Shown: positions 1 through 29,833 of the stretch, one piece after another
Position numbering within the stretch: position 1 is the first letter of the stretch
How the letters are laid out: the number at the start of each line of letters is the position of its first letter
NCBI GenBank assembly: GCA_024220525.1
Contig: JAMYWO010000354.1
Coordinates: 6,584 to 36,686, forward strand
Direction: 5' to 3'
Length of the DNA: 30,103 nt
DNA from: Cochliopodium minus
Lineage: Eukaryota; Discosea; Himatismenida; Cochliopodiidae
The notes under the pieces: generated by a model
Database searches by the model: none
Told to the model about the DNA's origin: nothing
What the model saw: only the letters and a program-made list of their open reading frames with translations
Position numbers and translations under genes: made by a program

Positions 1-2903
1 CAATGATATCGATATTTGAAATAAAGTTATTTGAGGTTTTATTAGAGAAAGTCCATGCCCATTGTGAAATAACAAACTCACAGCTGATGTTAAATTGATT
101 TGGATCTATTTTGATTGGATTTGTTGGACAATATTGACAGTTTTCAACTTGATAATAACAAACAGGGTTTATTTGAATAGAACAGTTGCTTCCCAAGTAT
201 CCTGTAGAACAAAGACAAGTATTTGGAGAAACACACTTTCCATTGTTGTTACAATTATTTAGTGATGAGCAATCTGAAACACTGCAATTAGCTTCTAACC
301 ATCCATTTGAACAAAAACATTCATTTGGAGCTTTACATTCTCCATGAGAATTACAATCATTCAGAGAAGAACAATCTGGAACACTGCAATTAGCTCCTAA
401 CCATCCATTTGAACAAAGGCATTCATTTGGAGCTCTACATTCTCCATGAGAATTACAATCATTCAGAGATGAACAATTTGGAGTTTTACAATCATTTCCT
501 GACCATCCTGAAATACATTCACAACTATTTGGAGATGTACACAATCCATTTCCTGAACAATTATTTTGTGGAGAGCAATCTGGAACATTGCAATCATTTC
601 CAATCCAACCACCAAAACAACTACATTTTTCTGGAGCTGAACAAATACCATGTGAATTACATTCATTTAAATTTGAACAATTTGCAAAACTACAATTATT
701 TCCAAACCAACCTTCAAAACAAGTACACTCATTTGGATTTGAACAATTTCCATTTGAATTACAATTATTCAATGAAGAACAATTTGGTGTGCCACAATCA
801 TTTCCCAACCAAAATGAATTACACGAACAATTATTGGGAGAAACACATGTACCATGAGGATTGGGTGTGTTACTATTACAATCATTTAATGAAGAACAAT
901 TTGCAACTGAACAACTGTTTCCAGACCACCCATTAGAGCAGTTACAACTGTTTGGAGCAATACAACCTCCATTCCCACTACAATCATTTAATGATGAGCA
1001 ATTTGCAGTTGAACAATCACTTCCATACCACCCAGAAATACAAGAACAAGTATTTAATCCAATACAAATACCTTTCCCATTACAACTTTTAAGAGATGAG
1101 CAATCAGGGCATCCTATAGTACAATTACATTCTCCAAAACTATAACCTAAAAAAAAAATTAAAGTTTATTTTAATTAAAGATAAATTCTTTTTATTTTAT
1201 TTACCATACTCTGACAACAATCTATTTCCCCCCCATATTGAAATTTGGTCGAATTTAGAAAGGATATTTATATAGAGATCTGAACAGTTCAAGCCTTCTA
1301 TTTTGCTTGCATCATAAGATGTATTGAATTGATATGAAGAATTTTCATAATAAACGTTTTCATAAACCAGAGAAATATTGGTAAAAGAAGTCCCAATGAT
1401 GTATCCCGTCGATGTGATATTATTCACAAATATTTTAGATTGTGAGTATGAATTTCTAATTGAAAATCCACCTGTTTCAAAAAATTAAAAATCAACTTTA
1501 ATGAATTAATTGAAAATTTTTTACTGTCGACATTTAGAAAACCAACTAACCCTCCAACTCCATTCTGAGCACTTAAATTATTAGATTGACAATAAGAGTT
1601 CTCAATTAATACATTTGTTCCCTCTATTTGACCTACGAGCCCTCCTACTGTTGAGCTATTGATCGAGATAACGGATACATTCGCGCTTACATATAAATTG
1701 GATAAATAAGCAACATTTTGGGTAGATCTATTATAATTTATTGATTCAAATTTAAAACGATTGAATAATATCAAAAAGTACCCAATAACTCCTCCTACGA
1801 GATTTAGTGGTGCTATTATTACACCGTTTTGAGTACCAATATTAGTTGCTGTTGAATTGGACCTCATCCATCCCACTATTCCTTTTTATTAAAAAAGAGA
1901 TAAAATATTAACTTTATGATAAATATAAAAATCTTTATTAATAAATAAAAACTTAAAAAAGATTTAAATCTAAAAAATAAATATTACAAGAAAAAATTTA
2001 ATTTTTCTTACCTCCTATTGTTCTTCCAGTCAAAGAAAATATTATTTGATTGTTTGGATATTTTGGAAATCCTAAGTTATGGCAATCCATAAAAATATTG
2101 TTAGATTCTGCCACACCTGCCTTTGAATTTCCATTTTTTAATTTTAATAATTAAAAATTAAATTTCTTTTTTTTTACTATTCCTCCTATATTATTTTGAT
2201 CAGCCCAAACAAATGTATTTTTCACCGAAACATTTTTGATTATTGAATTTTCAATCTGTCCAATAATTCCTCCTTCAAGAAATTTTAATGAGATTTTAAA
2301 ATAATAAAAATTATCTTAATATTTACCACAACAACACGAGGAACAGTTTATTGTATTTTGTTGATCATCATTATCTGTTGTGAGAGTGATATTTTCGAAA
2401 GAAATATTATAACCATTTCCCATCAGAGATCCAGAGTACTGTGCACCAACCAAATTTATATTTTGAATCACCTATAATCATAATAATTAAGATAATTCAT
2501 ATATTTGGTTATCCAATATATAGATTTTTTTATCGTGTTAAAAACATATAATAATCTTATAAAAAATTAATTAGTGGTATATTATTTTTTTTACGAGATT
2601 TCGGATCGATGATCCATTTCCAAAGCTAAATAATCCTGCATCTGCAGTTCCGGTGGAAATTGTTAAATTAATTATTTTATGGTTATTTCCATCAAATATT
2701 CCTTTGAATTTGCTCATTGAACTTCCAATGGGCGAAAAATTGTAGGATGAGCAATTTATATCCATCAAAAGAGTATATTTCACGTTGTTATTGTTTGTCA
2801 TCATATTTTGTAATTCTCCACAATTAGAGATATTAAATGATTGCTCTTTAGAAATAACTATCAACAAAGATATCAAAATAATCATTGAAAGAAGAGATTT
2901 CAT
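1..2903 (-). CDS. Surface protein A: GLUG repeats + nine EGF repeats + Cys module (3' end outside window)
   Basis: Exons, 5' to 3' on the minus strand: 2903-2595, 2471-2327, 2272-2178, 2120-2012, 1881-1525, 1471-1205 and 1146-1, with all phases consistent (809 codons seen). The start at 2903 gives a signal peptide (MKSLLSMIILISLLIVIS); an ATG at 2921 in the same frame would add six mostly basic residues. Residues about 30-425 carry GLUG-like repeats (GGIIGQIENSIIKNV, GGLVGQIEGTNVLIENSYC) expected to form an extracellular beta-solenoid. Residues about 428-750 are nine EGF repeats. Residues 752-809 match the Cys module of genes B and C (PVCYYQVENCQYCPT, then FNISC and WTF). Many N-x-S/T sites. 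By analogy with B and C a transmembrane helix should follow beyond base 1. Role inferred only: cell-surface adhesion or recognition. The family resemblance is clear; the function is unknown. Confidence 0.85.
172..1146 (-). repeat. Array of nine EGF-like repeats (about 35 residues each)
   Basis: Read on the minus strand, a unit of the type CSSLNDCNSHGECKAPNECF followed by CSNGWLGANC recurs nine times. Six cysteines per unit and a Gly-Trp/Tyr-x-Gly turn fit EGF/tenascin-type repeats. Units differ by many substitutions, so the array is older than the mucin repeats of genes B and C. It sits in one large exon exactly where B and C have their mucin stalk. Confidence 0.85.
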
Positions 2904-3083
2904 TTTTTTTTTTGAAATCATTTGATTAATCTTGATCCCTCATTCAAAGACAAACACTACATCATTCTCCTTACTTTCATTCTTGACATCAGATAAAAAA
3001 ATCAAAACAACAGAAAACTCATCCATCCCCTCCTTGATCATCAAACACTAGATGAAGAATCCTTCTTTTGGGTCAAACAAGGG
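2904..3083. promoter_or_regulatory. Divergent intergenic region between gene A and the LRR gene
   Basis: About 180 bases separate the two start codons. The piece 2997-3083 stays open in the LRR reading frame and reads like protein (…HPLLDHQTLDEESFFWVKQG), so the LRR gene may begin further upstream or have an unseen 5' exon. No recognisable control element is visible. Confidence 0.4.
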
Positions 3084-3290: not shown

Positions 3291-3326
<36 letters not shown>

Positions 3327-5178
3327 ATTTTTTATTTTGTTATTTTTTATTCATTTATTTATTTTTAAATTAAATTTTTTTAATTATATTTCCGCATTTG
3401 TTATTTTTTATTCATTTTTAAAAGGGAAAGAATTCTTTGCATGCAAAGAACTGACCGAAGTGAACCTGAGCAACAACAAAATAGAGAAGATCGAAAAGTT
3501 GTTTGGAAAGGGGTGCAAGAAATTTGTGCAATTAGAACTCAAAGAAAACTTGCTTTCCTCCTTTGACTTTTCTTCATTTGAACACTTAACTTATGTTGAT
3601 TTGTCTCACAACAAATTGAAAGATTTTCCCAAATCTGTTTCTTCTTGTAAGGGTTTGAAGCACTTGGATTTGTCTCACAATCTCATCAAGTCTTTGCCCA
3701 CCAAGGAGAAAGAGTTTGGTACCAAACTTTTGTTTCTTTTCTTCTTAACATTTATTTTTTGTTAAAATTTTTTTTTTTATTCCATTTAAATTTATATTGT
3801 TTTATTTTATTCATTTTTACACGCTTTTTTTTTTTGCTCTTTTTATTTTTAAATTTTAATTTTTACATTTATTTTCACACTCTTTTTTTTTTTTTTTTTG
3901 CTTTTTATTTTTAATTAAAAATATTAGTTATTTAATTTTTTATATAATTTAAATTTTTTTTACATTTTTTATTAGAGGGTTTTCAAAACAAATTTGAATT
4001 TATAAAAATTGATCATTTTATTTTATTATTTTTCATAAACAAATTTTTCATAAAAATAATTTTTCATCATTTTTTTTTTTTAAAAAATTTTTAAACATTT
4101 GAAAATTTTTGTTGATTTCATCAAATTTTTTTTTTTTTTAAAAAAAACAGGAAATATGATAGAAATAACAAGGTTGAACTTGAGGGACAACAAGATAGAA
4201 ACTTTGGACAAATTTCCTTTTCAGGGGTTCACTTTTTTGACTGACTTTGACGCCTCCAACAACTTTATCACCTCCTTGCCCTCCACTTTGGCTTCATTGG
4301 ATTCCCTCACCAAATTGAATTTGTCTTGCAACAGGTTAACTGATATCACCAAGTTAGATTGGCAGGTAATTTTTAATATTTAATTTTTAATTTTAATTTT
4401 TAATTTTTAATTTTTAATTTTTAATTTTTATTTTTTAATTTTTATTTTTTATTTTTTATTTTTTATTTTTTATTTTTTATTTTTTATTTTTTATTTTATA
4501 TTTTTATTTTTATTTTTATTTTTTAAACAAGTTCCAAGAGCAAAAAATCCATAAAACTCAGAGTCAGTATTGTGTTGATTACTACCTCTATCGCTTTGCT
4601 TTTGCAGATCATCTACTTGCTCTACATCACATTCGGTTCCTTCCCCAACATCTCCTTCGCTGTCGCCAACTATTTTGTTGTAGAATTGTAATTTATTTTT
4701 TAATTATTTAATTTTTATTTATTTTTATCATTTTTATTTTTATATATTTTTTTATTTTTATTTCTTGTTTATTTTTATTTTTATTTTAATAATTTTTGTC
4801 ATTATTTATTTTTTTATTTTCATTAATTAAAAAAAGTTTTTATTTTTATTTATTTTTGATTCTTCTCTTTTATTTTTTGTATTTTGTATTTTTTATTTTT
4901 TTTATTTTTTTTCATTTTTATTTTTTTATCATTTTTATTTTTAAATTTATTTTTATTTATTTTTTATCACTTTATATTTATATTTTTATTTTATTTTCAT
5001 TTTTAATATCAGAATTCCTGCTTATTTGTTGTTCCTTGTTTTCTTCCCTGTCTCTTTGGAGAAAATCAAGAATTTCAAGACTAGTGGCGGCACGAGCGAG
5101 ACCAACTCCAGAACCAAAGGAACCGAATTGTCTGATAGAAAGCAAAGTGTTAAAAAGTTTGATGAGAATAGCAACTGA
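3084..5178 (+). CDS. Leucine-rich repeat protein with two-helix, TOM1-like membrane C-terminus
   Basis: Exons 3084-3249, 3425-3718, 4151-4365, 4539-4687 and 5013-5178; phases fit throughout, giving about 329 residues (an acceptor at 3430 would drop two). Six or seven LRRs are visible (LTEVNLSNNKIEKI, LTYVDLSHNKLKDFP, LKHLDLSHNLIKSLP, ITRLNLRDNKIETL, LTKLNLSCNRLTDI). The last two exons encode two hydrophobic segments (VLITTSIALLLQIIYLLYIT and IPAYLLFLVFFPV) with the spacing and Asn-Tyr-Phe-x-Val-Glu-x-x-Pro pattern of the last two helices of THH1/TOM1/TOM3-type seven-helix proteins, then a polar tail ending in TGA. The other five helices are absent, so this is either a true fusion or two genes joined by assembly across simple-repeat introns. 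Introns 3719-4150 and 4688-5012 hold only T-rich sequence. The start is uncertain. Confidence 0.6.
3256..3331 (+). repeat. Intronic (TTTTTTA)n heptamer tract next to an ambiguous base
   Basis: Perfect to near-perfect heptamers inside intron 1 of the LRR gene. The single N at 3255 lies at its left edge and marks uncertain sequence. Confidence 0.9.
4381..4530 (+). repeat. Intronic TTTTTAA/TTTTTTA tandem tract
   Basis: Intron 3 of the LRR gene is almost wholly made of TTTTTAA units passing into TTTTTTA units. It lies exactly between the LRR-coding and the membrane-coding exons, where an assembly join would be hard to detect. Confidence 0.9.
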
Positions 5179-7206: not shown

Positions 7207-10200
7207 TTATTTTGAAAAACAATCGTTGCACACTCTCACTGGAGAAGAGGATATATTATGAATAACTTTAGTCTTGCTTGAACAATAATAACAATACAAA
7301 CCACCACACATTCTATTTTAAAATTAATAATAAAAAAAAAAAATAATGTTAAATAAATTGATTTAAAATAAAAATAACTATAAAAAATAAAAATAAATTA
7401 ACAAAAATTAATTTCAATATTTTATTTACCGACAATGGTGTCTCCTGTTCCAAAAAGAGAAAGAAGATTTGCATGACAAACATATGCCTGATTCGAGATC
7501 ATCCATCCACTTGGGGGCCACAATTTGTTTTTCAACATCCTCTTTAGTTTCACTATTTAATGAAAAAAAAATCAAAAAAAATAAATTATCAAAGAAAAAA
7601 ATATTAAAAATAAATTATCAAAGAAAAAAATATTAAAAATAAATACTTTTTAAATATAAAATAAAAAAATGCTAAAAAATTTTTGTTAATAAAAATAATT
7701 TATTACTTTTCATCGTTTTTGATTTCTCCATCACGAATTTCTTTCAGTTGAATTTCTTCTTTGATTACTTCATTCTATTCAATTTAAAATTGGTTATTTA
7801 ATGAAGGTAAAAAATAAAAAGTTTTACATTTTTGTTAGTGGTAATCTCATCAACTTGTTCATTTTCCACACTCTCGTAATTAGAAATATAAAGCAAATTT
7901 TTGCTAAAATTATTTTTTTGGTCCTAATTGAATAAAAAATAAAAAAATCAAAATGATAAATGATAAATAAAAGTGAAAAATAAATAAAAAATAAAAAATA
8001 AAAAATAAAAAATAAAAAATAAAAAATAAAAAATAAAAAATAAAAAATAAAAAATAAATGAAAAATAAAAATGAAAAATAAACATTTTCTTCAATATCAG
8101 TTTTTCCATCAACTTCATCTTCAATAGGTTTGATTTGCTCTGTTTTATTTTCTTTGAAAGAAATGGTGATTTTGTTTTTGGGAGGGATGAAAGAGACCTT
8201 CGTCTTCTTTTTGGGGGAATATTGGGAAGAGTATAAGCTACATAGAGAAATAATGGCGGCACTCGGAATTTTTTTTAAGTCTGAATGATCGGAGATAAAT
8301 TGGAGACACAGAACTATTGTTAAAACTACGTTTTTGAAGTTAGTGGGGAAACAAGTCGAGTGGTTGTTGGATGACCATTCCTATTTAAAAAAAAAATTTT
8401 TAAAAAAAAAGATGTGAAAAAATAAAAAAAAAATTTATAGTTTTTATAAAAATAAAAAAAAAATAAAAAATTTTCAAAAAAATTTAAAAAATGCTGAAAT
8501 TTTAAAAACAGTTTTACAATTTTGGGCAACTGAAATTGATGGATGAGTTTGACAGATGGAAAGGATAGATTGACGGGTTTGGTTCGGTCAGCTTTGTCCC
8601 CAAGACCCAGCTGGCCAAAGGTATTGCTTCCACAAGAAAAAACTTCATTTTTATCTTTTTAAAAAATTTAATTTAAATAAAAAATAAATAAATAAAAATA
8701 AAAATAAAATGTTTTTTCTTTTTATTAAAAATTTTACTGTTTAAATAGAGAGTGTGGTTAAATCCTGTCGTTATGTGTTTGAATGAACCCTCCACTTTCT
8801 GAAAACGAAGCACATTTTGTTTGTTGCCAGTGAAAAGTTGCCCCGAGTCGTTATTTCCTGTCTCAAATAATTCTCCATTCTCTAAAAAAATTGATAATGA
8901 AAAAAATTTGTATTTAAAATGATTTTAATATGATTTAATAATTAAAAAATTAAAAAATTACTTGTGATGTAGAATGTGTGGGAGCCTCCACAATGCAAAG
9001 ATGCAAAATTAGCTTTCACATAAACAGGTTCGTTTTGATCCAAGGTGTTTCCAATTCCTAATCTTCCATCATTGTTTTTTCCGCAGCCATAAAATCCTTT
9101 TTCTTTTAAAAAAAATAATAAATTTTTTTTATTAAATAAATTAAGTTATTTGACAAATATTACTTGTCAGAAAAAATGTGTGATAAGTTCCACATATTAA
9201 ACTATCGGAAGGAAATTTGTGAACAAAAAAGGGTCTTTCTTTAATTTCTCCTTTGATGATGGGTGATCCCATCTGTCCAAACTTGTTGGAACCCAATCCA
9301 AATACTTCATTGTTATCTTTTCAATTTTAAAAAATAAAATAAAAAAAGAACAAAAAATATTTTGTGTAAAAATAAAATAAAATAAAATTTGCTCATTTTG
9401 AAATTTTTTTTACTTCTCAAGAAAAGAGCAAAATCCTTTCCACAACCAAACGACTTGACATTTTCTATTTTGATATGCACAAATTTATTGGTGTTGAATC
9501 CCATTGAAGGACATTGTCCAGTGAAGTGAATCGTGTCATCCACTTTTAAAATGTTTAAAAAATATTATAAAAAATAAAAAAATACCTTTTTGTATCATTG
9601 TAAAATCGGAAGATGCATATGCTCGTTTCACTTCGTCACATATCTTGACGAATTTAAACTCATTTGAATTCTTCCCTATACCTAATTGTCCCTTTTCGTT
9701 GTTTCCTTTTGGGAGATACAAAAAGTAAATGTATTTATTTAATTTTTATTATTTTAATTATTTTTTATTATTAATTTAATTGTATTTGCTTTGGGTATAA
9801 ATTTTATTTTATCTTTTAATTAGAAACTTTATTTTTCTTTACCGCATCCATAGAGTGTACCATTCACTATTGTGATTTTTTTTTTTCAATGAATTTAGGT
9901 TGAGGAAATAAATTTTAATAATTCAGTATTTATATGAATTGAGGTTAAAATAATTGAATTGAAATGGAATTTCTAACTTTCTAGGTAAAGACTGTGATTC
10001 TCTCCCAAGATTATGGCTTTGATGCATGGATTATTGCATATCTTGAAGGGATATGCTGTATCCACCCTTGTATGGCCAAGTTGACCAAAATTATTCTTTC
10101 CAAATCCAAAAAGATCCCCATTTTCTTTGTTTATCATGTTAAAAATGTCAGAATTTAGGTGAAATATTTTGTGTTTTTATTCAAAATTAAAATTTATATG

Positions 10201-12038: not shown

Positions 12039-13183
12039 CTATTTCTCCTCATTCATATTATCAATCTCTTCCTCCTCTTTTTTGAGTTCCTCCAACAATT
12101 TTTTCTCTTGCTCTTCAATGGAGATTTTGGAGAAGGTATCGATTCTAGGTGATGGTTGGGCTTTAGTACCACCCAAACTGGTAGGGATGCAATCTAGAAT
12201 TTAGAATATAAAAAGGGAAATTTCTTCAGAAATAGTGAATCTTCTTACCTTTATCCAAAATCTCCAACAATTCTGGATTTTTGACGAAGAAAATTTTGTT
12301 TTTTGTATTTGGATCGATCCAAGGACTGAAAATCTTCCATGCCACCCAAAATATAATTGGCTATTAAAGAAAATATTGTTATATATGTGTTATAATGGAA
12401 GGATAATGGAATTTGGGTTACATAATTAATAACAAAGATGGTTCCAGCTCTTTCTGGATAATAATTTTGAAAAATCTCCAGGATTTTCTTCAAAAAATCA
12501 TAATCAATGTTACGAAGACCCCTATAGACGAGTTGATAATGAAAATTTTGTTTGTATTCAAAATAATCCTAATTTTCTTTTACCAATTAGCCATATCGAA
12601 GAGAATAACAAAAGTGTTTGTATCCTCTGCCAAATGTATAGCACTGTCCAAAAGAAATACAGTTGCCCCAACTACATCATCCAAAACTCTGGTGTTAGGA
12701 TTGTGACGTGCGGGGTAGGAGATGAGTACAGGTCTATTGAATTTGTCCCTGACATCAGAGAGGTACAATGATCTTTGGTGCACCAACAATTTGAATCTCT
12801 CTGATTCGATGGGTTTTTGATCTTTTCTCCATTTGATGTAATTTTGAATCATTTCGTCTGCCTTTAGCAAATCCCAGCTTCTTGCGATCAAAAATCTATT
12901 TTTTGAGAAGAAATTTGATATTTAAAATATGTTTTATATTAAATCTGCATTGATAAGGTTAAAATTAAACATTATGTATGTAATTCTTAATTTTCAAGTT
13001 TACCTTTCAATGTCTTTATCTTTCCATTCTTTCTCGCTCAATTTCAAATTGCTTCTCATTTGAACAATTTTTTCTTTTTGCTCTTCAGTCAATGGTACTG
13101 GTTCCTTGAAATACTAGAACGAAGAATTGAGGGTTAATAATAATATAATTTAATGTGAAATGTACTTTTTCATGATACTTCAT
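12039..13183 (-). CDS. CRAL-TRIO (Sec14-like) lipid-binding protein
   Basis: Exons, 5' to 3': 13183-13166 (18 bases), 13113-13004, 12895-12584, 12521-12422, 12360-12249 and 12193-12039; 268 residues ending in TAG. Residues about 7-75 form the CRAL-TRIO N-terminal helical part (LTEEQKEKIVQMR…, then RFLIARSWDLLKADEMI). Residues about 95-215 match the lipid pocket: RPVLISYPARHNPNTR, FVILFDMANWGLRNIDYDFL, FQNYYPERAGTIFVINYP, IIFWVAWKIFSPWIDPNTKNKIFF. The Tyr-Pro-Glu-Arg, Asn-x-Pro and Trp-Lys-x-x-x-Pro-x-x-Asp-Pro-x-Thr elements are typical of Sec14 proteins, which carry or present phosphatidylinositol and other lipids. The last 50 residues are a charged, probably helical tail. It is divergent from, and 34 bases away from, the acyl reductase gene, so a shared lipid pathway is plausible. 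The exact ligand cannot be told. Confidence 0.92.
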
Positions 13184-16200: not shown

Positions 16201-19005
16201 GAGCGCAAAGTGGACATCACTGACAAAAGCAAAGTTGAAGAAATCATCTTGGAAAACCTCCGTTCATGCGCAAAAACCAATGGGATGCATGTTTCTCATG
16301 TTCCTCGTGCTCTTTATATTGAAGATGAAGAAGTTTGGGAACAGTATCGTGTTTCGATGCATACAGTGACCCAAAAGTTTAACAGGTAAAAATTGTTTAT
16401 TTGTTTATCTTTGTTTATCTTTAAACAAAAATTAAAATCAAACATTGTTTATCGTTTTTATTTTCATTTATTTTAATTTTTGTTTGCTTTTTTTTTTTAA
16501 AAAATTTGATATTTTTCTTAATATTATTTACAAAAATAGATAAATGTTTATTATTCGCATTGTTGATCCTATAATTAATTGATGATATTTTCTTTAATTT
16601 TAAATTTTTAACACAGTCTTTTTTCTTTAGGAGAATTGCGACTCAAAAATACTCGGAAATCATTAAGATTTTGGCAATCAAAGTTAATGAAGAAGAGCAA
16701 AACACCAAAAATAAACTTTTGTCCCAAATCGGACTTTTGCTTGGGGAAAAATCTGATCAACAAATCATCTCCAACAAAGATGAGGACATTTCTTTCGAGG
16801 ATCTTGGAGGAACTTCTTTAGGTTATACAAAATAAACAAAATTTAAATTTAAATTTAAATTGAAAAAAAAAAATAAAATTAAAATTTAATAATTAATTTT
16901 AATTCAGAAATAAATTTGAATCAAAAATAATTAATTTAAATTTAGAAATAAATTAAATTTTAAACTATTAAATTAATTTGTAGGTGTCATTCAACTTTCG
17001 AATTGGATCGAAGAACAATTTAAAGTGAAAATCCCACCACACTTAGTAATGGAAGCGAACTCAATGTCCAAGTTGGTTGATCTCATAGAACAACACAAAA
17101 ACCTAATCAACAGTGGAAACAATGAGAATAATGCTAATGTTGTTGACTGGAGCTCTGAGGAGAAAATACCTGAAGAGTTATCCTCTCTTTTGAAAGGTAT
17201 TTCTACTTTACCTGAAATTCCTGCTGACAAAATCAGATCATTTTTTCTAACTGGAGCGACAGGGTTTATTGGTATTTTTTTAAAAAACCTTTAAATATAT
17301 TTTTTTATAATTAAATTATTTCATTTTTTATGGTTTTTATTCTTTTTTAATTTTTTTTTTAAAATTTTTTTTTTTTTAGGAGGGTTTTTGTTGGAAGAGA
17401 TTTTGAATTCGGTTGTAAATTCAGAAGTTTATTGCTTGGTCAGGGCCAAGACTGAGGAGTCTGCCAAAAAGAGGCTTTTTAATAACCTCGCCCAAATGGG
17501 AATCTTGTTGAATGACAAGATTCATCGTGTGCACGTAGTAGTGGGAGATCTCGCTCAAAAGTACAAATTAATTTTTTTTCAATCTTAATTTTTTATTATT
17601 TTTTTTTTAATATTTTTTCATTTTTATTTTTTTTATTTTTTTATTTTTTCATTTTTAATATATTTTTTTTTTTTTTTATCTTTTTTTTTCAGTGACTTTG
17701 GGCTTGAAGAAAAAAGTTTTAGTGAAATCAGCAACAAAATAGATGTCATAGTTCATTGCGGAGCAGCCCTAAACTCAGTAGGAGATTACTTCCTCCTTAA
17801 AAAGACCAATGTGCAAGGAACTTTGAGCTGCATCAAGTTGTGCGCCACCCGCTCCAATTTTAAAATTCCTTTCTTTCACGTCTCTACTTTGAGTGTTTTG
17901 AAGAATGAGGATCCTTCTCAGATCAAGTTTGGGTATGTCCAGTCTAAGATGGTTTCTGAGAAACTTGTGCAGAATGCTTTTTCTTTGTCTGGCTCCGAGT
18001 ATTTCATATTCAGACCTGGTAAGTTTGATCAAATTTTTTTTTTCTTATATCTTATTTTTTTAAATTAATTTTTCATTTGTGTTCATTTTCAAATTTTATA
18101 TAAAATTTTCGTTTTAGTACAATTAAACTTTTTTTCTTTTTCATCTATTTAATTTTTAAAACTAGAATTTATTTTCATTTTAAATTTTTTAACAAAATGT
18201 ATTTTTACGGTATGAAAATATAATATTAAATAATATATGATTTAATTAATAATAATATTAAATATTAAATATTCTTGACTCAAAATTGTTTTAATTATTT
18301 TTTTTTCACTATTAATTTGTTTATTTCTTTTTTTATTCGATCATTTTCAATTGAAGGAATGGTGAGTGGAAATGGAGAGAATGGTGCATGTAACAATAAA
18401 GATTGGTTTTGCAGAATGCTCCACTCTTTTCTTGTCACCAAAACTTATCCATCTTCTTTAAAATATCCCTTCCACTTGGTTCCAGTCAAATTCTTATGCA
18501 GCTTTATCATTCGAGGTGGAATATTTGCTTTAAATAAAGATTTAGGAGTACTTTTTTTTTTTTTTATTATTTTTTGATTCTTTTTATTTTTATTTTTTCA
18601 TATTTCTTATAAAGAAAATTTTCAATGTTGGAAATGACACGTCACTTTGTTACTCCACCATTGTCAAAGTCATTAAAGCATCTTTCAAGGACTTTGAAGA
18701 GGTGAAAGACTATGACGAGTGGTACTTTGAATCTATCAAAGAAAAGACCAACCCTGTTCACGATGTTCAAGCGTATTTTTTTATTTTTTTATTTTTTTAT
18801 TTTTTTATTTTTTTTTATTTTTTTATTTTTTATTTTAATTAGATTATTTTCTAAATCTTTCCCAAGAACTTCTTCTGGTTCTGATATGTCCTCCACCAAC
18901 CAAGTCATATCCTCTTATAATGAAATCAATAAGGAAAACAAAATTGAGTGTCCCCTTGTAGACGAGGAATGCATCTTGAACTTTTTTGAATTTTTGAAGA
19001 AATAA
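13218..19005 (+). CDS. ZZ-finger / acyl-adenylation / carrier / thioester reductase fusion (carboxylic acid reductase type)
   Basis: Twenty-one exons: 13218-13287, 13329-13514, 13573-13918, 14040-14410, 14543-14622, 14678-14687, 14747-14880, 14934-14967, 15020-15242, 15296-15331, 15381-15450, 15508-15573, 15748-15991, 16079-16385, 16631-16821, 16984-17271, 17380-17560, 17693-18018, 18357-18547, 18615-18772 and 18843-19005; 1224 residues, every junction in phase. Residues 70-106: ZZ-like finger (C70, C73, C83, C86, C93, C96, H102, H106). About 120-715: long-chain acyl-CoA synthetase type adenylation domain with YTSGSTGLPK (344-353), YGSTE, TGD (586-588), DRKTNLYKLQNG (604-615). About 720-830: carrier domain with LGGTS, Ser788 for phosphopantetheine. 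About 875-1224: reductase with TGATGFIG (879-886) and YVQSK (1027-1031). Inferred reaction: activation of a carboxylic (probably fatty) acid with ATP, thioester on the carrier, release as aldehyde or alcohol. The usual His motif after the P-loop is degenerate (NPLSSTSGR). The intron 18019-18356 holds only T-rich sequence. Confidence 0.93.
14429..14528. other. Assembly gap of 100 Ns
   Basis: The run of exactly 100 Ns suggests a gap of unknown size. It lies after a donor at 14411 and before an acceptor at 14542. Phases of the flanking exons agree and the adenylation domain has no missing piece there, so no coding exon seems lost. Confidence 0.97.
15613..15745 (+). repeat. Intronic TTTTTTA/TTTTATA tandem tract
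   Basis: It fills the intron 15574-15747 of the acyl reductase gene with T-rich heptamers and a TTTTATATTTTATT variant repeated at regular spacing. Confidence 0.85.
18773..18836 (+). repeat. Intronic T-rich heptamer tract
   Basis: TATTTTTT units fill most of the last intron of the acyl reductase gene. Confidence 0.85.
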
Positions 19006-19346: not shown

Positions 19347-21229
19347 ATGGAGCTCTATTCCTTTGGATTCAATGGATTTGGAGAATGTGGATTAGGAGAA
19401 ACAAATAAAAATGTGATGGAGCCAACCTTTGTGATGAAAAATGAAGAGATATGTGCCATTGTCTTAGGAAGAAATAGTTCCTTTTATTTGGAGAGTATAA
19501 AAAAAAAATTTTTTCAATATTTTGTACGGTGTGTGAAAATTTAAATATTATAATATTATAATATAATAGGGAATGGAGATTTATATGGTTGTGGTAAAAA
19601 TTTTTTTAAATTTTATTTCTTTTAATGTAAATTCTTTTAATTTAATTTCTTTTCATGAAAGGAATGAATGACAGTTGCCAGTTAGGACTAATGGATAAAT
19701 CTAAACAAACTAAATTCTCTTTAATAACTACTAAAGTAAAGCAAGTAGGCTCTTCTCAGTTTTACTCAATAATTCAAAAGGGTTTTTTAAAAATAAAATT
19801 TTATTTTTTTATTTTATTAATATTATTCATTAAAATTTTTTTTTAATTTTTTTTTAGATAATTTTTTTTTTCAATTTTTTTTTTTAAGATGATGACAAAT
19901 TATATTGGTTTGGAGATCCAAGAATTTTGTCGTATAAAACCTTTGATGAAATAGACATTAAAAATGTAGTTTCTTTTTCTTGTGGAATCAATCACGCTTT
20001 ATTTTTAACCAGTAAAATTTTTAGGAAAATAAATAATAAAATAAAAACTATTAATTTAATTATTAAAAAAATAACCAAAAAAATTCTTAAATAAATTAGA
20101 AAATGGAGAAGTGTGGTCTTTGGGGTCTAGTGAAAATGAGTTGTGTGGGTTCAGTCAACAACAAATTATTGGAAAACCTACTCTTTTGTTGACTGACATA
20201 AACATTATTTCTGTTTGCTGTGGAAATTCCATTTCATTTATTTTAACAAGTAAAAAAAAAAATAAAAAAAAAAATCGTTTTTTTTAATAAACAAATTTTT
20301 GAAATAAGGAAATGAAAGTGGAAAGACCATTTTAAAATGTTTTGGACCAAATACTCAACTGATTAGTCCAAAAAGAGAATCAAACAATGTGAACATTACC
20401 ATCATTGATAGTTTTCCCGATATTGTTTCCGTTCATTGTGGTTCGGAGCATTCTTTCATTTTGACAGGTTTTACAAAATATTTTTTCTATAAAAAAAAAT
20501 TATTCAAAATATTTTAAATAATTTTGTTTTAAATTTGATGAATAAATTTTTTTTTTTTTTTTTTTACTTGTAAAGAAAAGGGAGATGTTTATGGCTATGG
20601 AAACACTTCATACGGACAACTCAGCCTGGAAACTCCAATCAACGCCGAAAATAAAAGTTTCAATAAGGTTAGTGTTTCTGATGTTGCTTTCATTTCAACG
20701 GGATGCCACCACTCCATTTTTGTCAACAGTGATCTTTTTTTTTTTTTTTTCATTTTTTTTCGTTTTTATTTAAAATTAAATCAGGAAAAAACGAAATTTT
20801 TGTTTGTGGTTTTGGAGGTGATGGAGCATTAGGTTTTGGTACCTTATCACACCAATACACCGCTAAGAAACTCAATTTTCCGGGTTTGCTTCTGCTCCAA
20901 GCCTACCACTTAAATCAAGTAAAATCACAAAAAAATTTGCTTATTTTTTTATAGGAAAATTAATTATTTATTTTAAATTTTAGGAATGGTCAATAAAAAT
21001 TCACAAAAATTTGGGAAAGGATTTCAAAGATGTGGTTTTCACTCTTTTATTGTGTTTGTTCCAAATCTCTCTTCACACAAAAAACTCTACCAAGTATCCC
21101 ATTCACTTAAAATTGCCCAAACCCATTCAATTGATCGTCATCAAAATTGCCTATGATAATACTTTACAGAGATCTTCTAAATCTTTTACTCTTCCTCAAA
21201 ACAAAATCTCTATTTTGATAAATAAATAA
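19347..21229 (+). CDS. RCC1 seven-bladed propeller protein without FYVE domain
   Basis: Nine exons: 19347-19494, 19570-19593, 19662-19781, 19889-20011, 20100-20249, 20309-20467, 20576-20728, 20785-20918 and 20984-21229; 418 residues. The blades start with YSFGFNGFGECGLGE and continue through LYGCGMNDSCQLGL, LYWFGDPRIL, VWSLGSSENELCGF, a degenerate KCFGPNTQLI, VYGYGNTSYGQLSL and FVCGFGGDGALGFG. Each blade ends with a Gly-x-x-His/Ser-x-hydrophobic-Leu-Thr motif at which an intron falls in phase 1. The exon pattern matches that of the RCC1-FYVE gene at 7207-10272, including the 24-base and 120-base exons. The last exon begins EWSIKIHKN and continues FKDVVFTLLLCLFQISLH, matching the module after the propeller in the FYVE protein (EWSSNNH…, FKNVVLTIVLCLQFISDH). 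The gene stops there, so it is a shorter paralogue. Molecular role unknown; RCC1 propellers serve as exchange factors or binding platforms. Confidence 0.92.
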
Positions 21230-21450: not shown

Positions 21451-24400
21451 ATGAAAACAGGGATTATAGTGAAGGTAATATAATTTGTTTTCAAATTTCA
21501 CTCGTTAAAACTTTAGAATTTTTTCAAAATCATAGCTATTTATAGCCAGTGTTCTTTTAATAAGCCAAATATCTAATCATACAAGATTTTCCAGATTTAA
21601 AAGAAGTGAAATTCCTTTGAAGACTTGTGAAGAACTGGAAAACATACAAAGAGATCTCAATTATTATCTTGAATTATCAATAGATTGCTCCAGCATTTCG
21701 AATTTTAAGAGTATAAGTAATTTCATGGGTACCTTGGATGGAAAAGGTTATGCTATCATGAATTATGGTTCATCAAATGGTAAAAATAATTCAAATTTTC
21801 ATTTTTTTTAATAACGAAAATATTCATTTTGAAAACCAAAATAAATACCAAATATTGTCAATAATATCACCTTCTCAATTCTTCCTTTTTTGAAGAGTTT
21901 TTGAGTTTTTGACAAAATTAAATTCAAAAATATAAATATAAATTATATTTTGAATATTATGAAAAATAGGATAGAATAAAGACCAAGTATATACAAATGT
22001 TAATCATAATACATTTATCCGGAAACAATACTCTTGTTTATTTGAAAACAAAATTTTTTTTTGTTTGACTGAATTGATTTTGAAAAAATAAAAAAATATA
22101 GCAATCTTCTTGGAAGCGAATGAAGCAACTTTCCAAAACTTACAATTGTTAAATTTTAAGATTAATGCAAATTCAGATAATGCCAGTGCATTGTGCGCAA
22201 CTTGTACAAATGTAAGAGCCTTGAATATCACTTTATCCACAACTACTCCATCAGAAATGAATACAATCACAGGATTAGGTAATTTGGGAGGAATCTTTGG
22301 TTCATTTGTTGGAAGAAGTGAAATAACAAATTGTATCGTGCAAAATACATTGGTTGTATCCAATCCACAAAGTAAATCATCAGGAGTGGGAGGATTAGGT
22401 AAAGATTTCTTTTATCTCTGAATTCAAACAAAATTTATTTTTTATACTCTTTATCATATGCAGTTGGATATTTTCAAGGAAGTATGGTTTCATGTCATAA
22501 TTTGGGATTCCAAGAAGATGGTGGTATAAATATTATTGATTCTCAATCACCCTATACAGGTAAATAAATTCAATAAAAGGATTTTCTTTATATTATTTTT
22601 AAAAATAAAAGGGGGACTTGTTGGAAGGGCTTACATGAGTACTATAACAAGAAGTGGCACATATCAAGGTGTTATCCGGTCATCAGAGATAGGATCATCT
22701 GCTGTGGGTAAAAAAAATTTAGAATAAAAACTTTTTTTTCAAAGAGATTTCTTATTGTGAATCTTTATTTCCAAAGTTGGACAAAGTACCGGTTCCACCT
22801 CATGTAATTTTACATCTGATTTAATCTTTTTTTTTTTCAACAATTTTTTATTTTTAGTTTCACAAATGTATTCCGGGGTGAATGTTCAAATCTTGTCAGA
22901 TAAAACAATAGTTGGAGGAATTTTGGGAATGTAAATTAAAAGAATCATATTTTTTTTTTTGAAAATTTTTTATTATTAAAAAGGCATTGTAGCATAGCAG
23001 ATGAAACTTTAACAATAACTAATTGTTATTCTCAAGCAAAAATAAGTGGACAGGAAATAATTGGAGGTAGAAATTTTTTGATTTTAATTTTTTTGATTTT
23101 CCAAACTCTATCATTTATTTTTATAAAGGTTTGGTTGGACAAATCTCTTCATCTGAATCCAACAGAGGGAGTGTTACGATTACAATGGAAAATTGTTATT
23201 TTTCTGGATCACCTTCTGGGCAAGGAAGTATTGGAAACATAGTAGGAAACATTAGCCCTGTGACTAGTGACATGGAAGTAATTTTCACAAACGTTTTTTA
23301 TAACAAAGACGAAAACAGTTTTGATGGAATCGGATCCAGGCCAAATATTGGAAGTGATCCAATAGCCCTATCTTGTTCAGATCTCTACTGTCAAATATTA
23401 CGTTATTTTGATCAAGTAAAATGTTTCTTTTTTTTTTTTCCTATTAATTATTATAAAGATAACAATTTGGGGTGGTATTGCCTTACGTGCTGAATATTAT
23501 TTTGCAACCAATCATTTTGTTTTGTGTATGACTTCTTGTGATGTACCAATAGATACTTTTATTCCTGCTTCAACAGAAGTGCCATCCACATTAATACCAT
23601 CCACCACAGAGCCATCCACACTAACACCATCGACAACAGAACCATCAACGCTAACTCCGTCAACAACTACTCCTTCAACAACTGCACCATCTACAACTGC
23701 ACCTTCAACCACTGAACCATCCACACTAACACCATCAACAACTGCTCCTTCAACACAAATACCCTCAACCACCGCACCTTCAACAACTTCACCATCCACA
23801 ACAGAGCCATCCACACTAACACCATCGACAACTGCTCCTTCAACCACAGAACCGTCCACACTAACACCATCGACAACAGAACCATCCACTTTGACTCCAT
23901 CAACACTAATACCCTCAACCACCGCACCTTCAACAACTGCACCTTCAACCACAGAGCCATCCACACTAACACCATCGACAACAGAACCATCAACGCTAAC
24001 TCCGTCAACAACTACTCCTTCAACAACTGCACCATCTACAACTGCACCTTCAACCACTGAACCATCCACACTAACACCATCAACAACTGCTCCTTCAACA
24101 CAAATACCCTCAACCACCGCACCTTCAACAACTTCACCATCCACAACAGAGCCATCCACACTAACACCATCGACAACTGCTCCTTCAACCACAGAACCGT
24201 CCACACTAACACCATCGACAACAGAACCATCCACTTTGACACCATCAACGCTAACACCATCCACAACTGCACCATCAACAACTGCTCCTTCAACAACAGA
24301 GCCATCCACACTAACACCATCAACAACTGCTCCTTCAACTACAGAACCGTCCACACTAACACCATCAACAATTACTCCTTCAACAACTGTACCCTCGACC

Positions 24401-25725
24401 ACAATACCTTCAACTACTGAACCGTCCACTTTGACACCATCCACAACAGAACCATCAACGCTAACTCCATCAACAAATACTCCTTCAACAACTTTTTCTT
24501 CAACCACTGAACCATCCACATTAACACCATCAACAACTGCTCCTTCAACTTTAATACCATCGACAACTGCTCCATCAACAACAGAACCATCAACATTAAC
24601 ACCATCTTCAACTTCTAGTTTGTCACCAACAGAAACTCAATCTTCGATCTCAACCACTCAAACAAGGACAAATTCACCTTCAACTACTGAACCAACTACT
24701 TTGACACCTTCGACAACAGAACCTTCGACAACAATACCCACTACGGAACATTTAACTACAGAATCATCCACTACGGGACCACCAACTACAGAACCATCAA
24801 CGCTAATACCCTCATCAACAGTTATGCCATGTTTATATGAAGTACCAAATTGCGAAAATTGCCCAACAAGAGGAATTTTGCTTGATCAATCTATGTTTAA
24901 TATTTCGTGTGTTTTGAATGAGAGAGTTTGGGGATACACTTTCACTCCTTTATCTCCGAATACTACAACAACAATTTCTCAAGTGGTAAGCTTGAACCAA
25001 ACAACTGTTACAATTGGAGGGAACTTGGAAATCACTCAATCTGTCACTTTGAATGGCTCAAGTATTATTATTGGAGGAAATTTTAACCAAACATCAAACA
25101 CAACCCTTGTTGTTGTTCTTACACCCGAAAACAACAGAAATGGGAATGGTAAAAAAAAATTTCAAATCAATTAATTGAAATTTTAATCTCCCCAAACCTC
25201 TTTTTAATAATTTTTTATTTTTGATAGCTGCACTAAATGTTTCTGGTTGTGTTACATTGAGTGGAAATATCAGTTTGGTATTGGATCAAAAACTTCAAAA
25301 TGGAAATTCAAACATCTCTTTGATAAATTACAATTGCACACAGAAATTGGATTTCAATACCACTCAATTGAGTGTAAAACCAACATACAAAGACAACAAA
25401 TGTGATAAGATTGGAACAACAATCAACAATCAGCAAAATTCTCTTTCAGTTTCGCTTTCATCAACATCTGGATCAAATTGCAAAGGTAAAATTTAAAATT
25501 TATAAATTCACTTGGACGGAATTAAATATCAAGTTTCAAAAACTAATAACTAACTCTTTTTAAATTCCACATAAAAAAGGTATTCCAATGGGAGCAATTA
25601 TTGGTATTATTGTTGGTTCTGTTGGATTGGCTGTTGTATCAATTGCAGTGATTGCTTTTCTTTTGTGGAGAAGGAAGAATAGATTCGATCAACAAATCAG
25701 TGAGATTGGAAATGAAATGAATTAG
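21451..25725 (+). CDS. Surface protein B: GLUG repeats + mucin stalk + Cys module + transmembrane helix
   Basis: Exons 21451-21474, 21536-21779, 22102-22398, 22464-22559, 22612-22707, 22777-22803, 22858-22930, 22984-23066, 23129-23415, 23459-25148, 25228-25485 and 25580-25725; 1106 residues. The signal peptide (MKTGIIVKLFIASVLLISQI) is split by an intron after residue 8. Residues about 50-410 carry GLUG-like repeats (NLGGIFGSFVGRSEITNCIV, GVGGLVGYFQGSMVSCHNLG, TVGGILG, IGGLVGQ) likely to form a beta-solenoid. Residues 450-865 are a Ser/Thr/Pro stalk of five-residue units (PSTTE, PSTLT, PSTTA), a probable O-glycosylation target. Residues 866-~1058 are a Cys module (PCLYEVPNCENCPTRGI). The helix 1063-1087 (AIIGIIVGSVGLAVVSIAVI…) precedes a short basic tail (RRKNRFDQQISEIGNEMN). 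Intron 21780-22101 shows no other gene. Inferred role: surface adhesion or recognition. Confidence 0.9.
22342..22578 (+). repeat. 237-base tract identical to 26599-26835 in gene C
   Basis: It includes the end of exon 3, the whole 65-base intron, exon 4 and the start of the next intron. I found no difference by eye between the two copies, while flanking exons and introns differ clearly. Confidence 0.9.
23579..24826 (+). repeat. Mucin-type minisatellite, 15-base unit, gene B
   Basis: In-frame 15-base units encode Pro-Ser-Thr plus two variable residues (TE, LT, TA, TT, QI). The array has more than 75 units with many synonymous variants, and degenerates at its 3' end into other Ser/Thr-rich sequence. 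Confidence 0.92.
23603..24240 (+). repeat. Large internal duplication in the mucin array (period 345)
   Basis: 23603-23895 and 23948-24240 (293 bases each) read identically by eye. The offset is 345 bases, or 23 fifteen-base units, so the frame is kept. The identity implies a recent unequal exchange or slippage. Confidence 0.9.
24793..25493 (+). repeat. 701-base tract nearly identical to 28938-29638 in gene C
   Basis: It covers the end of the stalk, the Cys module, the complete 79-base intron 25149-25227 and the following exon. I noticed only two differences (at 24824 and 25454). The next intron then differs in length between the copies. Confidence 0.9.
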
Positions 25726-25830: not shown

Positions 25831-28800
25831 ATGAAGACAGGAATCATTTTATCTGTAAGATAATATTCATTTGTTTTCAATTTCCTTTCGTTTAAATACA
25901 ATTGAATTTTTTACAAAAATCCATTAGCTTTTAATTGTCTGTGTTCTTTTAATCAATACAGTATCTTATCATACAAGATTTTCGAGAAATCCAAGAGCTG
26001 AGGAGTGTTTAACAACTTGTGATGATCTACTAAATATTAAAACTGGAGATGAAAATGTCTATTATATTTTGAAAAATACAATTGATTGTTCTCAAACAAA
26101 TATTAAGAGTATAAACAATTTCATGGGTACAATAGATGGAAAAGGTAATGCTATCATGAATTTTGCATCAAATAATGGTAAAAATAATTCAATTTTAAGT
26201 ATTCACCTATTTAATTGTATGCAAAAAAATATAAATTTGATTATATATATCCAATAGGATTAAAATTACAACTAAAAATACGAATCAAAATCCAAAATAA
26301 CATTAATCCGTAACTAGTTGACCATCATATAATCAATTTTATTTTAAAATAAAAAAATTAGGGATATTCTTGGATGCCAACAAAGCAACCTTCCAAAACT
26401 TACAATTGTTAAATTTTGAAATTAATGCAGATACAAATGATGCTGGTGCATTATGTGGGTATTGCACGAATATTAAAGCCTTGAACATCACCTTGAATAC
26501 AACTAAAGAATCAGGAAAAAGGAATACAATCACAGGATTAGGTAATTTGGGAGGAATCTTTGGGGTTTTTTCAGGGATAATCACAAATTGTATCGTGGAA
26601 AATACATTGGTTGTATCCAATCCACAAAGTAAATCATCAGGAGTGGGAGGATTAGGTAAAGATTTCTTTTATCTCTGAATTCAAACAAAATTTATTTTTT
26701 ATACTCTTTATCATATGCAGTTGGATATTTTCAAGGAAGTATGGTTTCATGTCATAATTTGGGATTCCAAGAAGATGGTGGTATAAATATTATTGATTCT
26801 CAATCACCCTATACAGGTAAATAAATTCAATAAAAAAGATTTTTTTATATTATTTTTTTAAAAATAAAAGGAGGACTTGTTGGAATAGCTCAAAACAGCA
26901 GTTTCGAAAGAAGTGGCACATATCAAGGTGTTATCCGGTCATCAGAGATAGGATCATCTGCTGTGGGTAAAAAAAATTTAGAAAAAAACTTTTTTGAAAA
27001 GAAATTTCTTATTGTAAATCTTTATCACTAAAGTTGGACAAAATATAGGATCTTCGACATGTAATTTTACATCTGATTTAATCTTTTTAGCAAATCCTAA
27101 ACTTTATTTCTAAAGTTTCACAAATGTATTCCGGGGTGAATGTTCAAATCTTGTCAGATAAAACAACAGTTGGAGGAATTTTGGGAATGTAAATTAAAGA
27201 ATCATATTTTTTTTAACAAATTCTTATTTCATTATTAAAAAGGCATTGTAGCACTTCAGATGATACTTTAGTAATGAGCGATTGTTATTCCCAAGCAACA
27301 ATAAATGGACAAGAAAATGTTGGAGGTACAATTTTTTTGATTTTAATTTTTTTTTTTTTTACTTTTTCATCATTTTTAATGATAGGTTTAATCGGACAAA
27401 TTTACTCAACGGAGTCCATCAAAGGAACAGTAAACATCACCTTAACTAATATGTATTATTCTGGGAGCATTACAGGTAGTCAATTTGTGGGGAATGTTAT
27501 CGGAAATATCAATCCATTGTCTATCAATATGTTTGTAACTTTCAAAAATGTTTTTTTTAACAATGGAAATGGACTTGAGGGAATCGGAAATGGCACTAAA
27601 GACTATGGGAATGAACCATCAGGCCTTGATTGTACAAACCTTTACTGTTCAATAATAAATTATTTTGATCAAGTAAAATAACTTTTCTTATTATTTCAAA
27701 TCTTCTTTTATTATTTTAATCTTGATTCATAGGGTAAGATTTGGGGTGGTGATACATTACTAGCTGAATACTTTTTCAAAAAAGGGAAGCTTCCTTGTGC
27801 AGGTGAATGTGCACTTCCAATACAAACAAATGAACCTTTTTTGACAGTTGAACCATTAACAACAGAAGTACCATCCACATTTATACCACCCACAATAACA
27901 CCATCAACAACAGAGCCATCAACTTTAATTCCGTCCACTTTTACACCATCTACAACAGCACCATCGACTTTAATTCCATCAACAATAGCACCATCAACTG
28001 TTACGCCTTCAACAACTGAGCCATCAACTTTAATTCCGTCCACTTTTACACCATCTGCAACAGCACCATCAACTTTAATTCCATCTACAACAGCACCATC
28101 AACTGTTACGCCTTCAACAACTGAGCCATCAACTTTAATTCCGTCCACTTTTACACCATCAACAATAGCACCATCAACTTTAATTCCATCAACAATAGCA
28201 CCTTCCACTATAACACCATCAACAACAGAGCCATCAACTATTACGCCTTCAACAACAGAGCCATCAACTTTAATTCCATCCACTTTTACACCATCAACAA
28301 TAGCACCATCAACTTTAACTCCATCAACAATAGCACCTTCCACTATCACACCATCTACAGCAGCACCTTCAACTTTAATTCCTTCCACTATCACACCATC
28401 AACAATAGCACCATCTACTTTAATTCCGTCCACCGTTGCACCATCAACTTTAATTCCGTCCACCGTTGCACCATCAACAACTGAACCACCCACAACACAG
28501 TCTACTTCAGGCACATCAAGTATGATCCCTTCAACACAAGGACCGTCAACTTTAACTCCCACAATCACACCTTCTACCTTAATTCCATCAACCACAGCAC
28601 CATCGAGTATAATCCCTTCAACGACTGCTAGTTTGGCACCAACCATTTCTACCTCTATTGCACCTTCTAATTCACCAACGGTGTCTCAATCTTCGACTTC
28701 ATCAACAAATGTACCTTCTACGATAATTCCTTCAACATCAACTTTAAAACCATCCACGTCAGCTCCATCTACTATTCCGACCACCATTTTACCTTCGACA

Positions 28801-29833
28801 ACAGAGCCTTCGAAAATGTTTCCTTCTACTTTGACACCTTCAACAACAGAACCCTCGACAACAATACCCACAACGGAACATTCAACAACAGAACCATCCA
28901 CTACGGAACCATCAACTACAGAACCATCAACTACAACACCATCAACGCTAATACCCTCATCAACAGTTGTGCCATGTTTATATGAAGTACCAAATTGCGA
29001 AAATTGCCCAACAAGAGGAATTTTGCTTGATCAATCTATGTTTAATATTTCGTGTGTTTTGAATGAGAGAGTTTGGGGATACACTTTCACTCCTTTATCT
29101 CCGAATACTACAACAACAATTTCTCAAGTGGTAAGCTTGAACCAAACAACTGTTACAATTGGAGGGAACTTGGAAATCACTCAATCTGTCACTTTGAATG
29201 GCTCAAGTATTATTATTGGAGGAAATTTTAACCAAACATCAAACACAACCCTTGTTGTTGTTCTTACACCCGAAAACAACAGAAATGGGAATGGTAAAAA
29301 AAAATTTCAAATCAATTAATTGAAATTTTAATCTCCCCAAACCTCTTTTTAATAATTTTTTATTTTTGATAGCTGCACTAAATGTTTCTGGTTGTGTTAC
29401 ATTGAGTGGAAATATCAGTTTGGTATTGGATCAAAAACTTCAAAATGGAAATTCAAACATCTCTTTGATAAATTACAATTGCACACAGAAATTGGATTTC
29501 AATACCACTCAATTGAGTGTAAAACCAACATACAAAGACAACAAATGTGATAAGATTGGAACAACAATCAACAATCAGCAAAATTCTCTTTCAGTTTCTC
29601 TTTCATCAACATCTGGATCAAATTGCAAAGGTAAAATTAAAATTTAAAATTTAAAATAACTTTTTTTAAATTGTACATTAAAAAAAGGTATTCCAATGGG
29701 AGCAATTATTGGTATTATTGTTGGTTCTGTTGGGTTGGCTGTTGTATCAATTGCAGTGATTGCTTTTCTTTTGTGGAGAAGGAAGAATAGATTCGATCAA
29801 CAAATCAGTGAGATTGGAAATGAAATGAATTAA
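25831..29833 (+). CDS. Surface protein C: tandem paralogue of B
   Basis: Exons 25831-25854, 25928-26177, 26362-26655, 26721-26816, 26871-26966, 27034-27060, 27116-27188, 27243-27325, 27386-27672, 27733-29293, 29373-29630 and 29688-29833; 1064 residues. Exon count and phases equal those of B, and seven internal or 3' exons have the same lengths (96, 96, 27, 73, 83, 287, 258). Signal peptide MKTGIILS + LLIVCVLLINTVS, split at the same place. GLUG repeats to about residue 410; stalk about 457-823 of units PSTLI, PSTFT, PSTIA, PSTVT, which differ from the unit mix in B; then the Cys module and transmembrane segment, almost identical to B. The first third differs from B by many substitutions, so identity is patchy. 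It ends in TAA where B has TAG. Inferred role as for B. Confidence 0.9.
27859..28971 (+). repeat. Mucin-type minisatellite, gene C
   Basis: 15-base in-frame units as in B, with different preferred variants (PSTLI, PSTFT, PSTIA). A higher-order period of about 105 bases (seven units) is visible from 27907 to about 28150. The last part joins the tract shared with B. Confidence 0.9.

Follow-up and report, generated by a model that had tools for sequence, protein, structure and literature searches.

The 30,103-nucleotide stretch of the Cochliopodium minus genome analysed here (hereafter the window; contig JAMYWO010000354.1) contains three genes, A, B and C, which belong to a family of at least 120 loci sharing one cysteine (Cys) module. 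Members of this family have their parts in the same order, mostly carry Ser/Thr/Pro stalks, bear several types of head and, when they are neighbours, often have nearly identical 3' ends. We consider it likely that this family of about 120 loci evolves through diversifying heads and through copying of a 3' anchor cassette, mostly between neighbours, and that the EGF array of gene A is a rare replacement of the stalk. The products would form a modular family of probable cell-surface proteins with differing heads, usually mucin-like stalks and one shared type of anchor.

Gene order in the Cys-module family

A search of the genome (44.65 Mb in 598 contigs; contigs and loci are designated below by C- and L-numbers, respectively) with the 107-residue Cys module of gene B gave 163 matches. 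Merging the 150 matches with E-values up to 0.085 yielded 120 gene-level loci, which sets the family at 120 members at least. These loci are distributed over 80 contigs, 23 of which carry two or more. Twelve of the 120 loci rest on E-values above 0.001 with the gene B query, seven of them being matched by the corresponding region of gene A at 0.001 or better. Five cysteines are invariant in a six-row alignment of the module.

A query made from the end of the head retrieved 112 matches at E-values up to 0.01, weaker matches having been dropped before counting. Such a head end lies upstream of the Cys module, on the same strand, within 1 kb at 76 of the 120 loci, within 1.7 kb at 81 and within 4 kb at 83. 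Three control placements, on the downstream side of the same strand and on the upstream and downstream sides of the opposite strand, each gave 0 of 120 at 1.7 kb; at 4 kb they gave 19, 1 and 0 of 120, respectively. The 19 downstream head ends on the same strand are taken to be those of the next gene in a tandem array. In addition, five other sites in the genome carry GLUG repeats above the Pfam cut-off, and at three of these (L002-L004) either the head end or the Cys module typical of the family is present.

From these loci, a canonical member would comprise a leader, a GLUG head (probably a beta-solenoid), often an edge of the C.C..GC type, a mucin-like Ser/Thr/Pro stalk, the Cys module, a beta domain, a single transmembrane helix and a short tail. 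The three genes of the window, all of them spliced genes read by eye, follow this plan. Gene A lies on the minus strand, with its start codon at 2903, and its coding sequence runs off base 1. The plus strand carries genes B (21451-25725) and C (25831-29833). The parts of the three genes are as follows.

1..160, minus strand: gene A, first ~53 residues of the Cys module, truncated at the window edge (the contig is N beyond)
161..1146, minus strand: gene A, start of the last exon, with the YSFGECNCTIGCP edge and then nine EGF repeats (Pfam; tandem repeats; phase-1 splice acceptor)
1203..2903, minus strand: gene A, leader and GLUG-like head in several exons, ending ...CSDLY...FDQ...IWGGNRLLSEYG (three-frame translation; head-end match C349:7786-7995)
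21451..23573, plus strand: gene B, leader, GLUG-like head and IWGG junction (reading by eye, Pfam)
23574..24829, plus strand: gene B, Ser/Thr/Pro minisatellite stalk (TRF 23596-24606; Ser/Thr/Pro fraction up to 0.82)
24830..25148, plus strand: gene B, Cys module exon (CLYEVPNCENCP...) with a phase-1 end (identical to that of gene C)
25228..25485, plus strand: gene B, beta-domain exon (AALNVSGCVTLSGN...SNCKG), phase 1-1 (1 of 258 bases unlike gene C)
25580..25725, plus strand: gene B, transmembrane segment, short basic tail and stop (by eye)
25831..27842, plus strand: gene C, leader, GLUG-like head and IWGG junction (reading by eye)
27843..28974, plus strand: gene C, Ser/Thr/Pro minisatellite stalk (TRF about 27852-28480; Ser/Thr/Pro fraction)
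28975..29833, plus strand: gene C, anchor cassette with Cys module, beta domain, transmembrane segment and tail (comparison with gene B)

A reading of the window from its sequence only had described these genes as having a leader, a GLUG-like head and a Cys module in common, and our results agree that they are real and related. Each gene opens with a short hydrophobic leader, followed by a head of GG[LIV][VI]G-type repeats, several of which coincide with exon starts, and the Cys module of gene B, used as a query, finds that of gene A (window 1-160) with an E-value of 2.1e-6 and 41% identity. Leaders in B and C, as well as transmembrane segments in B, C and the C145 paralogue of gene A described below, two marks by which type I surface glycoproteins are defined, were recognized by eye rather than with a predictor. 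In Pfam, the gene B head scores 20.3 bits as GLUG (PF07581), 0.2 bits short of the 20.5-bit cut-off, and the gene A head matches M26_N (E 0.0012) and Glug (E 0.08; 13.8 bits), both under cut-off. The nine EGF repeats announced for gene A are borne out by nine stretches each for EGF_2 (E 1.3e-33) and EGF_Teneurin (E 9.6e-37), with matches over the Pfam cut-off (PF07974 and PF23106, 115.4 and 125.2 bits), and by tandem repeats with a period of 102. Similarly, TRF recovers the Ser/Thr/Pro minisatellites that had been noticed in B and C. The tails of B and C read ...FDQQISEIGNEMN and that of C145 ...YSHQQKKN. Just past gene C, window positions 29911-30103 show ATGAAG and a possible splice donor, like the first exons of B and C, and perhaps represent a fourth gene truncated at the contig end.

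Anchor cassettes of neighbouring genes

The anchor cassette is about 0.9 kb long and extends from the Cys module (or the end of the stalk) to the transmembrane segment or the stop codon; in gene B, both introns within it are phase 1. Genes B and C differ at 0 of 319 bases in the Cys exon, 0 of 79 in the first cassette intron and 1 of 258 in the beta exon, whereas their stalks are 60-72% identical and the starts of their heads 60-79%. As the intron is identical too, selection on the protein alone is insufficient to explain this pattern, and ectopic gene conversion or recombination would account for it.

A similar contrast is seen in most pairs located on one contig. In nine of 11 same-contig pairs, the cassettes are 90-100% identical, while the sequence upstream is about 75% identical or less or matches over at most 20 bp. 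The C230 pair is identical over 821 bp and has an upstream match of just 20 bp. The cassettes are 99.4% identical in the C107 pair (upstream 72% over 123 bp), 95.6% in the C59 pair (68% over 374) and 94.2% in the B/C pair (70% over 770). Three C86 pairs have cassettes 90-97% identical, with 64% over 962 upstream or no upstream match, and two C94 pairs have cassettes 92-93% identical, with 74-75% upstream. Among pairs located on different contigs, 113 of 424 align over more than 400 bp, with a median identity of 73% and a maximum of 92% (C59 with C94). This last value implies that copying may reach past neighbours, or that the two contigs may lie together in the genome.

The edges of the tracts, placed by eye, are sharp. 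Upstream, identity begins 5-140 bp ahead of the first cysteine; downstream, it ends at about the stop codon in the B/C, C107, C59 and C86 pairs. The anchor appears to be the most clearly copied element of these genes, and the head their most variable part.

Stalks, heads and alternative explanations

Stalk type was read at 48 of the 120 loci, a Ser/Thr/Pro stalk being called when a 40-residue window consisting at least half of these three amino acids occurred within 900 bp upstream of the Cys module. Forty-three of the 48 loci have a Ser/Thr/Pro stalk and two (A and C145) an EGF stalk; the others are C88 (0.45, just under the threshold), C304 (0.30) and C78:164806, which has no letters upstream. 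As a control, 8 of 290 stretches of the window outside the three genes reach the threshold. An EGF_2 search (E up to 0.01; 45 matches genome-wide) placed EGF arrays no more than 4 kb ahead of the Cys module at 2 of the 120 loci, again A and C145 only, although this search is not exhaustive, as it missed a weak EGF near C89 that lies upstream of a Ser/Thr/Pro stalk. Within the limits of this sample, stalks are as a rule mucin-like, and an EGF array is a rare replacement. The sequence-only reading had proposed one body plan with two interchangeable stalks, and a genome-wide tabulation of Cys modules as a check. The body plan is supported, as neither of the two outcomes that the reading had named as fatal to it turned up: EGF and mucin forms share the module, and the EGF form has a transmembrane segment at least in the C145 paralogue of gene A; the EGF array is not a second standard option, and interchangeability does not stand as a general rule.

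The transmembrane end of gene A, on which that proposal leaned, is unreadable because the contig is N beyond base 1 (contig bases 1-6583, before the window, are all N). The equivalent region is available in the paralogue located at C145:1-3600, where a single exon holds the EGF array (eight EGF_2 stretches), the Cys module, the beta domain, a transmembrane segment and a stop codon. Positions 441-674 of C145 are 96% identical to the last EGF and Cys region of gene A (78 amino acids). As the C145 anchor resembles that of gene B (45% identity) and has a transmembrane segment and a stop, the EGF form is a family member and most likely membrane-anchored. The last exons of A and C145 are 92% identical over 1002 bp, while their heads are only 42-63% identical in DNA (53% in protein for the last head exon), so both EGF stalks go back to one. 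Very long open frames at A (2582 amino acids) and C5 (12723 amino acids) were not used, as they are probably read-through of N, which was seen for A and assumed for C5.

The junction between head and stalk gives a mixed picture of the earlier claims. The context CSDLY...FDQ...IWGG, said to be common to the three genes, is found in A and B, and C shares FDQ...IWGG but reads CTNLY. Intron phases at the junctions, which that reading had listed among the things seen, differ: B and C are spliced between FDQ and IWGG in phase 0, and A after IWGGNRLLSEYG in phase 1. In this respect A matches Ser/Thr/Pro relatives read by eye, in which the stalk exon often has a phase-1 start and an edge resembling EIPxTYGxCNCxxGC, that of A starting at the same place and in the same phase. 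Because the C145 EGF stalk shares its exon with the Cys module, the beta domain and the transmembrane segment, the stalk is not movable as a separate exon in its present form. The unit that can move is the whole 3' end.

Heads are of several kinds. On C86, a gene with a GLUG-like head (C86:58283) and an inverted gene about 23.5 kb away (C86:81988) with another head have cassettes 94.7% identical over 908 bp. By eye, the head of the latter resembles the GFDDL-like heads of three tandem genes on C357, a type without Pfam support that is named after a motif seen in this contig. Heads may also be stacked: locus L058 (C88:5000-10400) has three consecutive units of about 1.73 kb, each made of a GLUG-like head and a stalk and 82-92% alike, above one anchor. 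As the second and third heads directly follow a stalk and have no new leader, the locus probably encodes one protein. Head ends on C143 are similarly spaced (56131, 57841 and 59575). A propeller head on C54 and a hydrolase-like head on C64, both suspected by eye, had no Pfam support, and the claim for these heads is limited to a different appearance. An ATP-sulfurylase-like gene, recognized by eye, lies directly downstream of the C86:81988 gene (L027).

Three other explanations can be weighed against copied anchors under diversifying heads. EGF and mucin stalks might be equivalent options exchanged throughout the family by shuffling of a stalk exon, as the sequence-only reading had suggested. 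Gene A and the Ser/Thr/Pro genes do agree on both sides of the stalk, with a common head end, a phase-1 junction, an edge like YGxCNCxxGC and the Cys module, and C89 combines a weak EGF with a Ser/Thr/Pro stalk. Nevertheless, EGF arrays occur at only 2 of the 120 loci and 2 of the 48 read, both with one copied exon, and the C145 stalk has no separate exon, which makes this explanation very unlikely. Tandem duplication without gene conversion, with heads diverging fast and the anchor under strong purifying selection, would agree with the clustering of the family and with one pair on C94 (C94:65003 and C94:68659) that consists of whole duplicates (97% identical upstream). Such a process, however, would not readily leave 0 of 79 intron bases different next to stalks and a head start at 60-79% in B and C, identity that stops sharply at both tract ends, or two head types on one cassette in C86; we regard it as improbable, if less so than stalk-exon shuffling. 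Finally, the genes could be genuine and the pattern an assembly artefact, arising from head-anchor misjoins or over-polishing at near-identical cassettes. The assembly is indeed made of 598 contigs with N stretches, and both A and C145 lie at contig starts. Yet cassette copies sit between dissimilar flanks on both sides, copies in several pairs differ by scattered substitutions and small gaps, and 81 of the 120 loci repeat one 5' to 3' order. An artefact is the least credible of the three and extremely unlikely.

Several observations nevertheless weigh against a family shaped chiefly by copying of the anchor. Gene models were made by eye, without transcripts, and no Cys module follows 32 of the 112 head ends. 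Copying extends beyond the anchor in B and C, which share a second island of 96-98% identity in the middle of the head. Two of the 11 same-contig pairs depart from the pattern, namely the whole-gene duplicate on C94 and the C78 pair, whose cassettes do not align and in which one locus is incomplete. The C230 tract ends inside the transmembrane exon, and the C107 pair (L013 and L014) shares a 310-bp stretch, 95.7% identical, beyond the stop codon. Sequence quality also matters: about 0.55 kb is readable upstream of C86:81988, the rest being N, locus L010 of the C230 pair contains 169 N, and at near-identical cassettes the assembly could have misjoined a head to an anchor or polished copies to one consensus. 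Moreover, the 48 loci at which stalks were read are a non-random subset of the 120, most being the nearest relatives of gene B or located on contigs C304-C563, and five were included because they represented the gene A paralogue or looked like EGF candidates, of which there were four, all with Ser/Thr/Pro stalks in the end. As a separate observation, the 310-bp stretch of the C107 pair resembles the start of a further head.

The window has other genes as well. The introns of the sequence mark it as eukaryotic. Two other protists were set aside as its source: Acrasis kona, whose intron-bearing genes average 1-2 introns of 9-95 bp (PMC11589745), and Anaeramoeba, for which adhesion genes and peptide synthases are reported (PMC11550330), the latter because the PF01558 domain of pyruvate:ferredoxin oxidoreductase had no match in a search over single exons, which falls short of proof. 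TET/JBP, expected in Naegleria, had no match here, nor in any control genome. At positions 13563-19000, a gene with several exons looks by eye like an adenylate-forming reductase or a peptide-synthetase-like enzyme, with a phosphopantetheine site at 16977-17294 (Pfam) and about 100 bases of N near 14500. An RCC1-repeat gene backed by Pfam lies at 7910-9564 (minus strand), and another at 20542-21229 (plus strand) was recognized by eye only, as was a BTB-like ending. Finally, there are a leucine-rich-repeat gene at 3424-4383 and a CRAL/TRIO lipid-binding gene at 12251-12921.

Possible function and relation to described surface proteins

Under the scenario of copied anchors and diversifying heads, heads would change fast, other kinds of head would come to lie on the same anchor or be stacked in series, and the 3' cassette of about 0.9 kb would be copied by ectopic gene conversion or recombination, thereby placing different heads on the same anchor. 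The EGF array of gene A would be a rare stalk replacement, occurring in two genes with the same copied last exon. The proteins would reside on the plasma membrane, where the mucin-like stalk would keep the head at a distance from the membrane and the GLUG-like solenoid might bind a surface ligand. Recombination of the anchor would preserve a working membrane mount and occasionally hand it to a new head. Binding of prey bacteria or surfaces is a plausible role, which we put forward tentatively and at slightly less than even chances; recognition of other cells of the same kind seems unlikely. A bolder proposal is that an architecture of constant and variable regions evolved here independently, a recombination-prone 3' anchor cassette having repeatedly come to lie under unrelated, fast-evolving heads, whether GLUG solenoids, GFDDL-like heads or others, single or stacked, and thus generating a combinatorial repertoire of cell-surface receptors for prey or for self/non-self discrimination. 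We find this rather doubtful, although marginally less so than a role in recognizing cells of the same kind. Should comparison of isolates confirm that heads switch anchors, the family would be a natural protist counterpart of the constant and variable regions of receptors. In any case, a guess about stalk swapping gives way to a testable picture, with one anchor module, at least 120 loci, several head types and sharp-edged copying tracts, and to a candidate case in which recombination spreads a conserved anchor more than the binding head.

The anchor is a membrane-anchor module for which we found no curated family model. That of gene B matched nothing over the Pfam cut-off and 0 NCBIfam families. 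Other members gave single weak matches, the best being to a ribosomal S27e model in one of the six members scanned (NCBIfam E 4e-4, Pfam E 0.004), which we take for a coincidence of cysteine pattern. A PDB search of the anchor returned just single-pass transmembrane helices (E 0.034 or worse) and no convincing relative. Similarly, tblastn found no relative in viral contigs and in bacterial and archaeal genomes, with short-pattern seeding that would miss distant ones and with this genome as the sole eukaryote covered. The AlphaFold model of the gene B Cys module alone (mean pLDDT 45.5) was too poor for a fold search, and titles and abstract openings in the literature contained nothing recognizably about this family.

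Individual parts can be compared with described proteins. As regards GLUG-repeat and M26-type proteins (PF07581, PF05342), the GLUG cut-off is exceeded elsewhere in this genome and narrowly missed by the head of gene B, and here the head is joined to a stalk and a transmembrane anchor. The nine repeats of gene A strongly match teneurin-type and EGF_2 models; in the part scanned, only the repeat matched, other teneurin domains not having been searched for. Membrane mucins and mucin-like surface proteins of protists combine a Ser/Thr/Pro minisatellite ectodomain with a single transmembrane segment, as is the case here, but in the Cys-module family the minisatellite is a spacer beneath a head.

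The closest known logic is that of the variant-specific surface proteins (VSPs) of Giardia, a large family with variable ectodomains over a conserved C-terminal transmembrane segment and tail, for which recombination or segmental gene conversion between copies is reported (PMC7641422). Membership of that family was considered and rejected. Giardia VSPs are cysteine-rich with frequent CXXC motifs and end in CRGKA or GCRGK, whereas the ectodomains of A, B and C are GLUG-like, EGF or Ser/Thr/Pro rather than CXXC-rich, and the tails of B, C and C145 have neither ending. Unlike Giardia VSPs, members of the Cys-module family usually possess a mucin-like stalk, carry GLUG-like or other heads and are encoded by intron-bearing genes.

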